DNA of 8,510 bases, from the NCBI GenBank assembly GCA_001940725.1, contig MDVR01000135.1, positions 1 to 8,510 of the forward strand, in the 5' to 3' direction. Under the pieces are notes generated by a model that was given only the letters and a program-made list of their open reading frames with translations, made no database searches and was not told the DNA's origin. Each line of letters starts with the position of its first letter. Positions within the stretch are counted from its first letter, which is position 1. This document shows positions 1,264 through 5,473 of the stretch, in pieces. Both the position numbers and the translations under genes were made by a program. Source of the stretch: Candidatus Heimdallarchaeota archaeon LC_2. GTDB lineage: Archaea; Asgardarchaeota; Heimdallarchaeia; Heimdallarchaeales; Kariarchaeaceae.

Positions 1264-2562
1264 ATGTTGGAAGAAATTGATATCGCTAATCCCAATTCAA
1301 AATCTGAATTTATTGATTACTACAAGCGAATTAGAAAGAGAACTGAATTTCTTGCAGAACCTCTAGAAACTGAGGATTATGTGATCCAAGCTGTGACGGA
1401 TGCTAGTCCTGCTAAATGGCATCTGGCGCATGTCTCTTGGTTCTATGAAACTTTTATTCTGAAAGATTTTGATTCTTCATACAAACCCTTGAATGAAATG
1501 TATAATTTTATTTTCAATTCATACTACAATGATGTGGGACAGTTCTTCCCAAGACCACGAAGGGGAACTTTATCCCGTCCAACGGTTTCTGCTGTATATG
1601 AATTCAGAAAATATATTGATGATTCCATGTTAAATTTACTAGAAAGTATAGAGGATAATACAACATTGCAAACCTTTACAATTCTTGGTGGTAATCACGA
1701 GCAACAACATCAGGAATTAATGATGACCGATATCAAACATAATTTTGGTTCAAATCCTTTGTTTCCTATATACAAAAAAACCCCTACTCTTTCTGAAAAA
1801 GATGATGAACCCGTTCCTGATATGACCTTTATTTCCTTTAATGGTGGAATTAGTCAGATAGGTAATAAGTCGGGGGGTTTTGCTTTTGATAATGAGATGC
1901 CTGTGAACAAAGTATATCTCACTGATTATAAATTAGCAAATAGATTAGTTACCAATGGAGAATTCCTCAAAATGATTGAAGCAGGAGTATACCAGGATTT
2001 CAAATTTTGGTTGTCCGATGGTTGGGATATTATTCGAAGAGATGAGTGGCAGTCGCCATTGCATTGGCACAAGATAAACGATGAGTGGTACACATTCACA
2101 CTTGCAGGCATGAAAAAATTGAATCTCAATGAACCAGTTACACATGTTTCATATTATGAGGCCGATGCCTATGCTAAATTTGTTGGTAAAAGATTACCTA
2201 TTGAAGCAGAATGGGAAAATGCATCTCTTCAATATAATCTCACCCCATCTGAAGGTAACTTCTTTGAGACTGGCTATCTACATCCAAAAGCGGTGGATTT
2301 AGAAAAAGCAAATGAAGGGGATAAATTATTACAAATGTATGGTGACGTTTGGGAATGGACTGGATCTGCTTATATACCATACCCCGGTTTCTCAGTTCTA
2401 GCTGAAGGGGTATCTGAATATAATGGTAAATTTATGAATGCTCAATGGGTATTGAAGGGAGGTTCATGTGTCACACCAATTGATCACATTAGAAGCAGTT
2501 ACCGTAATTTCTTCCAAAGTGATAAACAATGGCAATTCACAGGTATTAGATTGGCTGAATAA
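1264..2562 (+). CDS. egtB: Ergothioneine biosynthesis protein EgtB (iron-dependent sulfoxide synthase)
   Basis: EgtB is a non-heme iron enzyme that uses O2 to join a thiol donor (gamma-glutamylcysteine or cysteine) to C2 of the imidazole ring of hercynine. The product is a sulfoxide, the sulfur-insertion step of ergothioneine synthesis. The 432-aa protein has the two expected parts. An N-terminal DinB-like four-helix domain (about 15-160) carries the iron ligands: His53 in KWHLAH, and His145 and His149 in a HEQQH motif. The C-terminal formylglycine-generating-enzyme-like (FGE-sulfatase) domain spans about 186-431, with LPIEAEWE at 311-318, GDVWEWT at 360-366, EYNGKF at 385-390, LKGGS at 397-401, YRNFF at 413-417 and TGIRLA at 426-431. 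Between them lie SYY (86-88) and PRPRRG (96-101), typical of the family. There is no methyltransferase tail, so this is not OvoA. egtD follows 157 bases downstream on the same strand. No egtA, egtC or egtE is visible, so the thiol donor cannot be inferred. Confidence 0.93.
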   Translation: MLEEIDIANPNSKSEFIDYYKRIRKRTEFLAEPLETEDYVIQAVTDASPAKWHLAHVSWFYETFILKDFDSSYKPLNEMYNFIFNSYYNDVGQFFPRPRRGTLSRPTVSAVYEFRKYIDDSMLNLLESIEDNTTLQTFTILGGNHEQQHQELMMTDIKHNFGSNPLFPIYKKTPTLSEKDDEPVPDMTFISFNGGISQIGNKSGGFAFDNEMPVNKVYLTDYKLANRLVTNGEFLKMIEAGVYQDFKFWLSDGWDIIRRDEWQSPLHWHKINDEWYTFTLAGMKKLNLNEPVTHVSYYEADAYAKFVGKRLPIEAEWENASLQYNLTPSEGNFFETGYLHPKAVDLEKANEGDKLLQMYGDVWEWTGSAYIPYPGFSVLAEGVSEYNGKFMNAQWVLKGGSCVTPIDHIRSSYRNFFQSDKQWQFTGIRLAE

Positions 2563-2660: not shown

Positions 2661-2691
2661 AATACCAGCAATATTTGGCACATAATACTCG

Positions 2692-2700
2692 GATATATCT
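2692..2700 (+). promoter_or_regulatory. TATA box of egtD, fixes the start codon
   Basis: The element gatatatct is centred about 25 bases before the ATG at 2720. It lies inside a longer in-frame extension that would begin at a TTG at 2675. Transcription from this box would start at about the ATG, so the extension would not be in the mRNA. This favours the shorter protein and a leaderless transcript, and gives egtD a promoter separate from egtB. Confidence 0.6.
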
Positions 2701-2719
2701 AATTATTAGTCGTGATATA

Positions 2720-3727
2720 ATGGTTGCAAAATACATCAAATTACAACAAGAAGATAAGGAGACTGCGTTGGCAAGATTTGCAAAGGATGTATTTTTAGGA
2801 TTTATGCGAACCCAAAAAATATTGAAAAGTAAATACATGTATGATGCTATTGGAAGTCGCATTTATGAAGAAATCATGGACCTTGATGAATACTATTTGG
2901 TTAGAGCAGAATATAATTCATTAGAAAATTCAAAAGAGCAATTAGCAGAATTATTTTCAAAAAAGAAAGTAAATTTAATCGAACTAGGTGCTGGTAATGG
3001 ATACAAGACGAAAATCTTTCTTCAAGCAATGCTGGAAAAAAATATCGATTTACGGTATACGCCAGTTGATATTTCAGAAGGCGCAATGATAGAACTTATT
3101 GATTCACTCAATGCTGATTTCCCCAATCTGAAAGCAGAAGGTTTGGTTGCTGATTATTTTGATGCATTGGAATATTTAAAAGGTAATAGAGAACCAGACG
3201 TGCACAATATTGTTTTATTTCTTGGGTCAAATATAGGTAATTTTGATTTTGATGATGCTGTAGATTTCATTTTTTCCTTATGGAGATCATTAAAAATCGG
3301 AGATTTTGTTTTCATGGGTTTTGATTTGAGAAAGGATATAGATATGATGATTGCTGCTTATAATGATTCTAATGGGATTACAAGTAAATTCAATCTGAAT
3401 GTTCTTAGCAGAATTAATCGAGAATTAGGTGGGGATTTTGATCTCTCTAAATTTAAACATTACGAACCTTATAATGTCAATACTGGTGCAATGGAAAGTT
3501 ACCTAATTAGTCTAGAAGATCAAGTTGTTAATATAACAAAAATTGATCGTGCATTTCATTTTAAGAAATGGGAACCAATTTTTATGGAACACAGTTACAA
3601 ATATTCAAAAGATGATATAGTTAACCTAGCCAATATAACTGGTTTTAGAGTTGAAGGATTTTTTTATGACGATAATAAATATTTTGTAAATTCTTTGTGG
3701 TGTGTGAAACCCAAGGATCAAATTTGA
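2720..3727 (+). CDS. egtD: L-histidine N-alpha-methyltransferase EgtD
   Basis: EgtD transfers three methyl groups from S-adenosylmethionine to the alpha-amino group of histidine, making hercynine, the substrate of EgtB. The 335-aa protein has the class I methyltransferase fold with family motifs: YDAIGS at 41-46, DEYY at 56-59, the SAM-binding ELGAGNGYKT at 88-97, PVDIS at 115-119, LGSNIGNF at 168-175, FDLRKD at 201-206 and FNLNVLSRINREL at 224-236. Matching by spacing to the Mycobacterium smegmatis enzyme (from memory), Tyr41 and Tyr58, Asn174, Tyr214, Glu290 and Ser292 sit where the histidine-binding residues Tyr39, Tyr56, Asn166, Tyr206, Glu282 and Ser284 are expected. The position of Met252 appears to be Ser260. 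The ATG is preferred over an upstream in-frame TTG at 2675 because a TATA box lies between them. It follows egtB in the same direction but probably has its own promoter. The 3' end faces the HMA gene with only a 32-base gap. Confidence 0.93.
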   Translation: MVAKYIKLQQEDKETALARFAKDVFLGFMRTQKILKSKYMYDAIGSRIYEEIMDLDEYYLVRAEYNSLENSKEQLAELFSKKKVNLIELGAGNGYKTKIFLQAMLEKNIDLRYTPVDISEGAMIELIDSLNADFPNLKAEGLVADYFDALEYLKGNREPDVHNIVLFLGSNIGNFDFDDAVDFIFSLWRSLKIGDFVFMGFDLRKDIDMMIAAYNDSNGITSKFNLNVLSRINRELGGDFDLSKFKHYEPYNVNTGAMESYLISLEDQVVNITKIDRAFHFKKWEPIFMEHSYKYSKDDIVNLANITGFRVEGFFYDDNKYFVNSLWCVKPKDQI

Positions 3728-3759: not shown

Positions 3760-3978
3760 CTATGCTTCTTCCACTTCATATCCCATTTGACCAATGATTT
3801 GTACAACTTTAGCCTTATTTTCTTCAAAATCCTTCATGATTTCCATAGTACCAGAACCAGCCTCCCAATCGACATTAACATGGTCGGTAAATTCAAACTT
3901 TGAAACACGTGCGGTAATGGAATTCGAACAGCTTCCACAGGTCATTCCCTTAATTTTTAATTTTAATTCATTAGACAT
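3760..3978 (-). CDS. Heavy-metal-associated (HMA) domain protein, probable copper chaperone
   Basis: This 72-aa single HMA domain should carry Cu(I) or a similar soft metal in the cytosol, handing it to a P-type ATPase or a sensor. The metal site is GMTCGSC at residues 11-17, with Cys14 and Cys17 as ligands; GYEVEE near the C-terminus (66-71) is the usual end of the fold. Length matches stand-alone chaperones of the CopZ/Atx1 kind. No copper ATPase lies within the window. The gene is divergent from a PadR-TRASH regulator, and a perfect palindrome sits just before its start, which suggests metal-controlled expression. Unlike its neighbours it has a Shine-Dalgarno-like GAGGT 8 bases before the ATG. 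Copper is the likely metal because of the TRASH partner and the GMTCxxC motif; zinc, mercury or silver cannot be excluded. Confidence 0.88.
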   Translation of the reverse strand: MSNELKLKIKGMTCGSCSNSITARVSKFEFTDHVNVDWEAGSGTMEIMKDFEENKAKVVQIIGQMGYEVEEA

Positions 3979-3986
3979 TTTAACTA

Positions 3987-3991
3987 ACCTC
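3987..3991 (-). promoter_or_regulatory. Shine-Dalgarno-like site of the HMA gene
   Basis: On the minus strand GAGGT ends 8 bases before the ATG at 3978. Most other starts in the window have no such motif, so this gene probably has a real 5' leader. That argues for a promoter further upstream (4030-4039) rather than a TATA box inside the palindrome. Confidence 0.5.
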
Positions 3992-3992
3992 T

Positions 3993-4013
3993 ATATATCA
4001 CTAATTGATATAT
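3993..4013. promoter_or_regulatory. Perfect 8-5-8 palindrome, probable operator of the PadR-TRASH regulator
   Basis: The arms atatatca (3993-4000) and tgatatat (4006-4013) are exact reverse complements around ctaat. It lies 14 bases upstream of the HMA ATG, in the divergent gap shared with the PadR-TRASH gene. Size and symmetry suit a dimeric winged-helix repressor. It overlaps either a TATA element or the predicted transcription start of the HMA gene, so bound protein would block transcription. That the neighbouring regulator is the binding protein is inference from position. Confidence 0.6.
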
Positions 4014-4029
4014 CATTTTTTGATCTATT

Positions 4030-4039
4030 GTATAAAAAT
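4030..4039 (-). promoter_or_regulatory. Candidate TATA box of the HMA gene
   Basis: On the minus strand atttttatac lies about 26 bases upstream of position 4008, in the middle of the palindrome. Starting there gives a leader of about 30 bases that contains the GAGGT site. The alternative is the gatatat sequence inside the palindrome itself, which would leave a leader too short to carry the GAGGT. Confidence 0.4.
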
Positions 4040-4137
4040 GATCCTTTTTGTTAAATTGTAATAGGATTTTATCTGCAAATAACTAGTCAAAACATCAAGT
4101 GCTTTAAGCATGGCTTCTTCGAGACCATAGTAGAGAG

Positions 4138-4581
4138 ATGGTTTCTGAATTAAAACTTGATAGCATGTTTCGTATTCAAACTTTGTTACTTTTAAAGAAA
4201 GATGAGGCAATGAGTGGTTATGATATCGCTAAAGAACTAGAAAGAACTACAGGAAAAAAACCGAGTTCTGGAAAACTATATCCTTTCCTTCATGAACTAC
4301 GAGAGAAAAAATACATTGAAGAAATTTCTGATGACTCTCATGGGGCGAGAAGTAAATCTAGCTATCTCTTAACTGATGATGGCTTCGAATTGGTTAGAGA
4401 ATTAATAACGCGAATGAGTAATCTGCTTGAAGCACGATTAGAACAATTACTTGAATCATGCCATCACTGTGGAGTACAACTATATGATTCAAAAGTAACT
4501 AAACAATTTGATGGTAAGGAACTATTATTTTGTTGTGAACATTGTATGAGTGCCTTCATAGAGATGAAAAATAAAAATTAA
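4138..4581 (+). CDS. PadR-family regulator with C-terminal TRASH metal-sensing domain
   Basis: A predicted metal-responsive transcription factor. Residues about 10-92 form a PadR-type winged helix: SGYDIAKELE (26-35) is the helix-turn-helix entry, SSGKLYPFLHEL (43-54) the recognition-helix region, and YLLTDDGFEL (76-85) the wing. A short helix (86-106) leads into a TRASH zinc-finger-like domain: Cys108 and Cys111 in CHHCG, then FCCEHC with Cys132, Cys133 and Cys136. This is the family's C-x2-C ... CC-x2-C pattern. In Sulfolobus, a TRASH-containing regulator governs a copper chaperone and ATPase, so copper sensing is the likely role here, though with a different DNA-binding fold. It is divergent from the HMA gene, with a palindrome between. 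An in-frame stop lies 33 bases upstream of the ATG with no other start between, so the start is well supported. Its own promoter is unclear; tttaag near 4103-4108 is a weak candidate. Confidence 0.87.
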   Translation: MVSELKLDSMFRIQTLLLLKKDEAMSGYDIAKELERTTGKKPSSGKLYPFLHELREKKYIEEISDDSHGARSKSSYLLTDDGFELVRELITRMSNLLEARLEQLLESCHHCGVQLYDSKVTKQFDGKELLFCCEHCMSAFIEMKNKN

Positions 4582-4610: not shown

Positions 4611-4826
4611 TTAATTTTGATGTTTGCTACAATAATTATTATTCCCAGTTGGATTTTCAATTACAACAAAGCAAATTTTACAGTGCAGAAAATCTTCTGA
4701 GCAATCTTCACGGGATACATGATCTCTATTCATACATCTCCATTTTTCAACACCTGCATCTTCATAGCAATGTTCGTCACAATGGGCTAAATCCTGCCCC
4801 CATACTATTGTTATATCTTCTCCCAC
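4611..4826 (-). CDS. Small Cys/His-rich protein of unknown function
   Basis: I do not recognise this 71-aa protein. It is rich in possible metal ligands: AHCDEHC at residues 14-20, WRC at 29-31, Cys42, HCKIC at 48-52 and YCSKH at 65-69. Seven Cys and five nearby His could bind one or two zinc ions. The C-terminal part (C-x2-C ... YC-x2-H) looks like a short zinc finger. The start is a GTG; a TATA-like box lies about 29 bases before it, consistent with a leaderless transcript. That promoter and the density of paired ligands favour this strand over the 82-codon frame opposite it, which is hydrophobic and featureless. It lies tail-to-tail with the PadR-TRASH gene (29-base gap) and downstream of the RING-like gene on the same strand. 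A metal-binding role is inference. Confidence 0.65.
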   Translation of the reverse strand: MGEDITIVWGQDLAHCDEHCYEDAGVEKWRCMNRDHVSREDCSEDFLHCKICFVVIENPTGNNNYCSKHQN

Positions 4827-4924: not shown

Positions 4925-5473
4925 TTAATTATTCAAATTTATCTCAATCAAATCTCTTTTTGTTAGGGATTGCCTACACAACGGACAAAACTTCTTTTCT
5001 TCAATCCATCCAAATAAATGATTTTGATGACCTCCACTTCTACAATGTTTACAAATAACCACCGTTTCATTTGATTTTGTCCATTTTTGAAAACACACAA
5101 TACATTTCTCCTCATCCAATCTAGATTGTAAATCGATTAGCCACTGATTGAATTCTTCTGAAATTTCTTCTTGATCTGTACCCAATCTTGATTGAAAACC
5201 AATTAAAGCGTTTCGAATCGATTCTTTTCGATTTTCTGGTATTGTTTTACCTGCTATTCGGACTTCTTCTTGACTATCTATCTTTTCTAGATATTGATTT
5301 ATTTGATTGTCAACACTTGTTTTGACCTTAGAAATTTTCTCCTGAATATTGAATTCTACACGTTTTTTTATTGCAGTGAATTTGGTTTTCAATCCACCAA
5401 GATTTGAACCACACTGGGGACAGAAGTTTATTTCTTTCTCAGATTGAAAACTGCAGTTTTTACATATATTCAA
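4925..5473 (-). CDS. Zinc-ribbon plus RING/PHD-like zinc-finger protein
   Basis: This 182-aa protein has zinc sites at both ends. The N-terminal zinc ribbon is CKNC (4-7) and CPQC (18-21). The middle (about 30-120) is charged and predicted helical, perhaps coiled. The C-terminal cross-brace has ligand pairs Cys124/Cys127, Cys141/Cys144, His149/His152 and Cys163/Cys166, with spacing x2, 13, x2, 4, x2, 10, x2. It also has the GW (155-156) and CPLCR (163-167) features typical of RING fingers. The C4-H2-C2 order is between RING-H2 and PHD/RINGv patterns. RING proteins act as ubiquitin E3 ligases in eukaryotes, and RING-like partners of ubiquitin-like systems are known in some archaea including Asgards. 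E3 function here is inference; protein or nucleic-acid binding is equally possible. The start is a TTG behind a TATA-like box, with no nearby upstream ATG or GTG in frame. It is head-to-head with the membrane-protein gene. Confidence 0.82.
   Translation of the reverse strand: MNICKNCSFQSEKEINFCPQCGSNLGGLKTKFTAIKKRVEFNIQEKISKVKTSVDNQINQYLEKIDSQEEVRIAGKTIPENRKESIRNALIGFQSRLGTDQEEISEEFNQWLIDLQSRLDEEKCIVCFQKWTKSNETVVICKHCRSGGHQNHLFGWIEEKKFCPLCRQSLTKRDLIEINLNN

Follow-up and report, generated by a model that had tools for sequence, protein, structure and literature searches.

The window, the whole stretch of 8510 bases (G+C 32%) that was analysed, encodes a 147-residue protein (4138..4581, plus strand) in which a PadR winged-helix domain is joined to a TRASH-type metal-binding domain. 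Judged from its sequence, this protein is likely a copper-responsive transcription factor that would derepress chaperone and exporter genes through the binding of Cu(I) by the TRASH domain; we assign this reading a probability of roughly three in four. We infer both copper as the ligand and DNA binding by the regulator. The PadR-TRASH protein is probably a repressing regulator of a cop regulon rather than an isolated two-gene switch, and its relatives, together with the DNA sites that match them, look like an undescribed copper-control system of the Asgard archaea.

The regulator was identified from its open reading frame, Pfam matches, conserved cysteines, and an AlphaFold2 model. The PadR domain spans residues 16–84 (4183..4389, plus strand) and matches PF03551 with an E-value of 1.3e-13 (51.2 bits against a Pfam cut-off of 27); this model is matched by 40 of 40 family members at E ≤ 0.01. 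The AlphaFold2 model has a mean pLDDT of 92.8, and PadR-family structures head its Foldseek and VIA-align results, where the best rows are mostly PadR proteins and the alignments cover residues 2–107. The TRASH-type domain occupies residues 107–142 (4456..4563, plus strand) and is recognized by the conserved cysteines C108, C111, C132, C133, and C136, its Pfam matches in the window protein lying below the cut-offs (YHS, 1.8e-4; TRASH_HVO_1752_C, 2.5e-4; Arc_trans_TRASH, 0.03) and its TRASH model score reaching 21.6 bits against a curated cut-off of 27. Used alone as a query against the PDB, the TRASH part returned weak rows, the best being TA0938 (E = 0.051). Across the family, PF24273 (TRASH_HVO_1752_C) was matched by 33 of the 40 members at E ≤ 0.01, with a best value of 1.2e-9, and it is present in the precomputed domain list for some PadR-TRASH relatives. 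The signature CxxC...CCxxC occurs in 54 of the 56 regulator ORFs, the window included; we take the TRASH domain signature to be the cysteine-rich C-x19-22-C-x3-C. Among 40 diverse members, G27, Y28, Y48, F50, L54, C108, C111, F131, C132, C133, H135, and C136 are invariant or nearly so. These results bear out the preliminary description, which had proposed a fusion of PadR and TRASH with these five cysteines at exactly these positions and with a DNA-binding fold other than that of the known TRASH regulators: in a Pfam search at E ≤ 0.1, the window regulator matched PadR, and Lrp/AsnC was absent from the results. The ten closest proteins are 78–89% identical and belong to Heimdallarchaeota or Kariarchaeaceae wherever the source gives a name.

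Divergent from the regulator gene, across an intergenic region of 159 nt, lies a gene for a 72-residue CopZ-like HMA metallochaperone with a GMTCGSC motif (3760..3978, minus strand; Pfam HMA E = 6.3e-10, 39.7 bits against a cut-off of 24.8). The CxxC is present, and the best NCBIfam match, CopZ_Bs, scores 34.8 bits, below its cut-off of 91. The divergent HMA gene had been noted, as had the absence of an attached P-type ATPase, which holds within the 8.5-kb window. The flanks carry no copper link: homologues of EgtB and EgtD lie upstream, and a zinc-ribbon/RING-like protein, an F420-dependent oxidoreductase, and a polyprenyl synthase lie downstream. EgtB (1264-2562, plus strand; NCBIfam TIGR03440, 528 bits against 360) is followed by an EgtD-like histidine methyltransferase (2675-3727, plus strand; 277.7 against 290.9), which together form an ergothioneine-type pair in an archaeon. 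The zinc-ribbon/RING-like protein (4925-5473, minus strand) has 182 residues, with a zinc ribbon towards the N terminus and a RING-like region towards the C terminus, and its Pfam matches are all sub-threshold. Convergent with the regulator is a cysteine-rich ORF of 71 residues (4611-4826, minus strand) that has no Pfam or NCBIfam match at E ≤ 0.1.

A profile search at E ≤ 1e-15 located PadR-TRASH proteins at 55 places in 53 of the 227 genomes of the phylum, which was taken as Asgard from the names of loci L001–L005 and of the listed proteins. Homologues with both parts also occur under the names Bathyarchaeia and Nitrososphaerota (P0097 and P0123), and the gene is present in a cultured Asgard archaeon, Candidatus Lokiarchaeum ossiferum (P0110). 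Scanning the genome contigs with the window regulator as a single protein yielded no relative, while a scan with an alignment gave seven loci, of which L007 was left out (bacterial, 32% over the PadR part). At two loci, L058 (7001-8062) and L060 (6352-7413), the PadR-TRASH frame continues from a long N-terminal stretch, for a total of 353 residues; this stretch may be fused to the regulator or may represent a separate upstream protein that shares its frame.

The PadR-TRASH genes are closely associated with copper-type transport genes. With the window excluded, a P-type ATPase of the CopA kind lies within 5 kb in 35 of the 55 loci and a small HMA gene in 7, and one or the other is found in 38 of the 55, which answers in the affirmative the suggestion that the fusion might co-occur with HMA genes and copper-type ATPases. 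Neither is found within 5 kb at the remaining 17 loci, 7 of which are less than 0.8 kb from a contig end. The 35 nearest ATPases comprise 30 with CPC, 4 with CPH, and 1 with CAC; the NYN motif is present in 22 of the 30 CPC enzymes and the MxxSS motif in 26, and we take these motifs to mark Cu transport. In a matched control among the 150 PadR matches listed for 30 genomes, with the seven weakest ATPase rows left out, a P1B-type match lies within 5 kb of 14 of 25 PadR-TRASH genes versus 1 of 125 other PadR genes (Fisher p = 3.5e-12). A divergent small HMA gene directly adjoins the regulator in L001, L006, L048, L052, and L053, as in the window. The single CAC enzyme (L006, 5641-7593, plus strand) stands beside the HMA/PadR-TRASH genes and an ArsR-like gene named by eye.

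The intergenic region of the window contains a 21-bp putative operator of the form ATATATCA-CTAAT-TGATATAT (3993..4013, no strand assigned), 15–35 bp upstream of the HMA start, with the core TRTCA-N5-TGAYA at 3996-4010. An exact palindrome had been claimed here; the palindrome is real, and its exactness is not, since only 9 of 10 positions pair in the window sequence ATATATCACTAATTGATATAT, where the 8-bp arms match and one inner pair (C/T) is mismatched. A second, weaker site overlaps it (4011..4025, no strand assigned), with one mismatch to the core and a shift of 15 bp relative to the main site; a 15-bp spacing of sites recurs upstream of copA in genome G002 and copZ in G005. Before G002 copA (L094, 4110-4208), such near-sites replace a single exact palindrome, and the arrangements at 4011-4025 of the window and at G005 copZ are shorter forms of this array. 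Taken alone, the window palindrome is weak evidence, because Markov shuffling of the 159-nt intergenic region produced arms of at least 8 bp in 146 of 2000 copies, and it was rejected as proof of an operator in its own right. Its significance arises, at the level of sequence, only through the promoters of the relatives.

The core was drawn from the window and L001 before any copA promoter was inspected, although the L003 and L005 loci, whose copA promoters were examined later, had already been retrieved. The relatives were sorted by recognition-helix text into groups K, T, and L, of which K denotes the clade of the window. In group K, the core occurs without mismatch upstream of the HMA gene of G001; about 20 bp before copA of the same genome, on another contig and thus in trans; upstream of copA and copZ in G005; upstream of a cupredoxin-ATPase in G006; and at copA in G003, where the longest ORF call would include it and a later start is assumed. 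The copA of G004 is preceded by the core with one mismatch, and upstream of one copA of G006 (L096) no core match was found. The conservation of the core before copA, copZ, and other ATPase genes of the relatives supports, by sequence, the proposal that the palindrome is a conserved operator. The core alone occurs at 55, 23, 37, and 22 places in G001, G003, G005, and G004, versus 12, 5, 13, and 6 for the reversed control, and was rejected as a genome-wide marker for its 22–55 places in each of the four genomes.

An extended pattern, ATRTCANNNNNTGAYAYRT, which was drawn from sites already inspected, was matched at 32 distinct places across six genomes (6, 6, 2, 1, 9, and 8 in G001–G006, respectively), for 41 strand matches in total, against 4 strand matches for the reversed control. 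A P1B/HMA match begins within 1 kb downstream of ten of the 32 places, where 0.034 would be expected (p = 6e-22); without the 7 previously inspected places, the count is 3 of 25 (expected 0.026, p = 2.8e-6). Both places in G003 are at P1B ATPase genes, and G002 has six places, all of them away from cop genes. Places inside ORFs account for 5 of 6 in G002, 2 of 6 in G001, and 3 of 8 in G006. Sites placed in promoters, which lie on the start codon or up to about 60 bp upstream of it, also precede a gene for a YHS protein (G005), one with a weak YHS match (G001), FTR1 and a cysteine-rich protein (G006), a Nitro_FeMo-Co protein (G004), an AMP ligase-like ORF named by eye (G001), and a few unassigned genes. 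Two ATPases of about 1000 residues carry putative operator sites (L137, 472-3534, minus strand; L097, 1613-4657, plus strand); the former comprises cupredoxin, HMA, and E1-E2 ATPase domains by Pfam, and the latter is alike by eye. Operator-like sites also occur at small membrane protein ORFs in two different clades (L143, 1516-1534, and L070, 8143-8162), and the L143 protein shows a weak PLDc_N match with a zinc ribbon.

Two further clades, groups T and L, have their own palindromes at PadR-TRASH/P1B genes. The group T pattern, TATATC-N6-GATATA, occurs at 11 distinct places in six genomes (reversed control, 0), 10 of which are upstream of a PadR-TRASH or P1B match, the remaining, unassigned place being on C82 of G199; 7 of these 10 had already been inspected when the pattern was drawn, and two places on C34 of G065 and one on C28 of G183 were new. 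The sites precede the PadR-TRASH gene itself in four genomes, and the pattern has no place in G181. The group L pattern, TATATAC-N6-GTATATA, occurs at 7 places in 15 genomes (reversed control, 4); 6 are upstream of PadR-TRASH, 2 of them already inspected when the pattern was drawn, and the seventh precedes, by 46 bp, an ORF that encodes a small membrane protein close to the regulator. Neither palindrome is confined to these loci phylum-wide. Among the matches listed, pattern T was found in 112 of the 227 genomes, with a reversed control often equally frequent, and was rejected as a phylum-wide marker; pattern L has 22 places in 21 of the 227 genomes versus 15 reversed, with 6 of the 22 at PadR-TRASH promoters.

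Within the fetched loci, sites of a group's own pattern are concentrated in promoters (promoter versus elsewhere: K, 5 versus 2; T, 22 versus 1; L, 6 versus 1), and the foreign-group patterns give 1 promoter site in all. This comparison, for which patterns T and L were shortened slightly, is partly circular, because the extended, T, and L patterns were read from promoters already inspected. An exact group site is carried by 4 of 7 loci in K, 12 of 18 in T, 6 of 16 in L, and 0 of 15 among the remaining loci. In the PadR-TRASH tree, each group is set apart from all other members by a branch with 100/99 support. The idea of a single palindrome common to the entire family was rejected, as each of the three clades has its own and none of the 15 other loci carries any of the three in its target promoters.

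PadR proteins are mostly dimeric repressors. A dimer of the regulator would bind the palindrome close to where transcription of the HMA gene starts, and likewise at copA and related genes elsewhere, and thereby block transcription; given that the sites lie between the start codon and about 60 bp upstream, such binding would hinder the start of transcription. As cytosolic Cu(I) rises, it would be bound by the TRASH cysteines, and the dimer may release the DNA or be remodelled. Release would allow the chaperone and the exporter to be made, and the HMA protein may then deliver Cu(I) to a CopA whose gene lies elsewhere. Where, as in the window, no ATPase is attached, a copA operator in trans like that of G001 would explain how one regulator serves several places, and the copA of G001, on another contig under the same putative operator, fits the earlier suggestion that the chaperone may serve an ATPase elsewhere. 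The companion claim of a self-contained switch is not supported: among the relatives, the putative operator is also found upstream of copA and further ATPase genes on separate contigs, and 35 of the 55 PadR-TRASH loci have an ATPase no more than 5 kb away. CopR of P. furiosus is both repressor and activator (PMC7830388), so that repression is no more than the probable direction of the response here.

The regulator might control the same genes in response to a natural signal other than copper, either a different soft metal or a thiol stress (Zn, Ag, Hg, Cd, or oxidation). TRASH domains are also found in mercury proteins (MerH, PMC3600143). The structure of the PadR protein Rv3488 was solved with other metals, and putative operator sites occur at an FTR1 permease and at CPH-type ATPases. 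Sites at cupredoxin-fused ATPases speak against such a signal, as does the predominance of CPC enzymes among the nearest ATPases (30 of 35) with their NYN and MxxSS motifs, taken here as marks of Cu transport. We therefore consider another signal unlikely, and copper the more probable ligand.

Doubts of a different kind concern the palindrome. AT-rich palindromes are bound by many regulators, and an ArsR-like gene lies near the L006 locus, so that the PadR-TRASH protein could be merely the neighbour of a site bound by a different regulator. This appears quite improbable, since the three palindrome types track three well-supported PadR-TRASH clades with differing recognition-helix text, foreign-group patterns total a single promoter site, and four group T genomes carry sites upstream of the PadR-TRASH gene itself. 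It is more improbable still that the palindrome belongs to an AT-rich core promoter (TATA region) rather than an operator. Its AT-richness, its distance of 15–35 bp from the HMA start, and the frequency of such arms in shuffled sequence would suit a TATA region; a TATA element, however, is expected at very many promoters, whereas the extended site, in which C/G positions and spacing are specified, is limited to 32 places across the six genomes, and P1B/HMA genes follow 10 of these.

The nearest known systems are CopR/CopT and VNG1197C, in which TRASH is joined to an Lrp-type domain (PMC7830388, PMC3600143). Like them, the PadR-TRASH proteins combine a helix-turn-helix domain with a C-terminal TRASH domain, are linked to a copper ATPase, and have a palindrome-like site near promoters (PMC7830388, PMC3600143). 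The motif given for P. furiosus CopR is TTNNCAWWWTGNNAA (PMC7830388), as opposed to TRTCA-N5-TGAYA here. In contrast to these Lrp/AsnC-type proteins, the DNA-binding domain of the new family is PadR, without an Lrp/AsnC match. By its sequence features the family seems to work like CopR, and it is not a CopR member because its DNA-binding domain differs. Compared with PadR, LmrR, RosR of Halobacterium, and Rv3488, the PadR-TRASH proteins add the C-terminal TRASH domain with its five conserved cysteines and are linked to copper-type ATPases. The window HMA protein resembles CopZ/HMA chaperones in its GMTCxxC motif, and the HMA gene stands beside copA in some relatives (G004 and G005); unlike the genes of these and the CopM (TRASH) chaperones, that of the window is divergent from PadR-TRASH, with no ATPase in the window. 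The bacterial copper regulators CueR, CsoR, and CopY exert a metal-responsive control of copA/copZ like that proposed here, but their DNA-binding folds and metal sites are unrelated. In the open-access literature, we found no paper that combines PadR with a TRASH or YHS domain, or a TRASH domain with a winged helix; a paper on PadR in Asgard archaea concerns membrane stress, with no copper or TRASH in the portion available. The PadR-TRASH family is a new combination of known parts, with a putative operator and a predicted regulon.

On a broader reading, which we favour somewhat over its negation, PadR-TRASH would be a widespread copper master regulator of the Asgard archaea, a parallel invention to the Lrp-type CopR, with a multi-gene regulon and with operator half-site and spacing changing clade by clade together with the recognition helix, in a code readable from genomes. 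Such a regulon would contain several P1B ATPases, ATPases fused to a cupredoxin, chaperones of the HMA and YHS types, and perhaps also FTR1 and small membrane proteins. To our knowledge, little is known about the targets of Asgard transcription factors. If the proposal is true, the Asgard archaea, to which eukaryotes are more closely related than to any other known archaea, would gain a specific copper sensor whose operator and regulon are defined and in which the TRASH sensor is joined to a second, unrelated DNA-binding fold, and the three clades with their three operators would make a protein–DNA recognition code testable.
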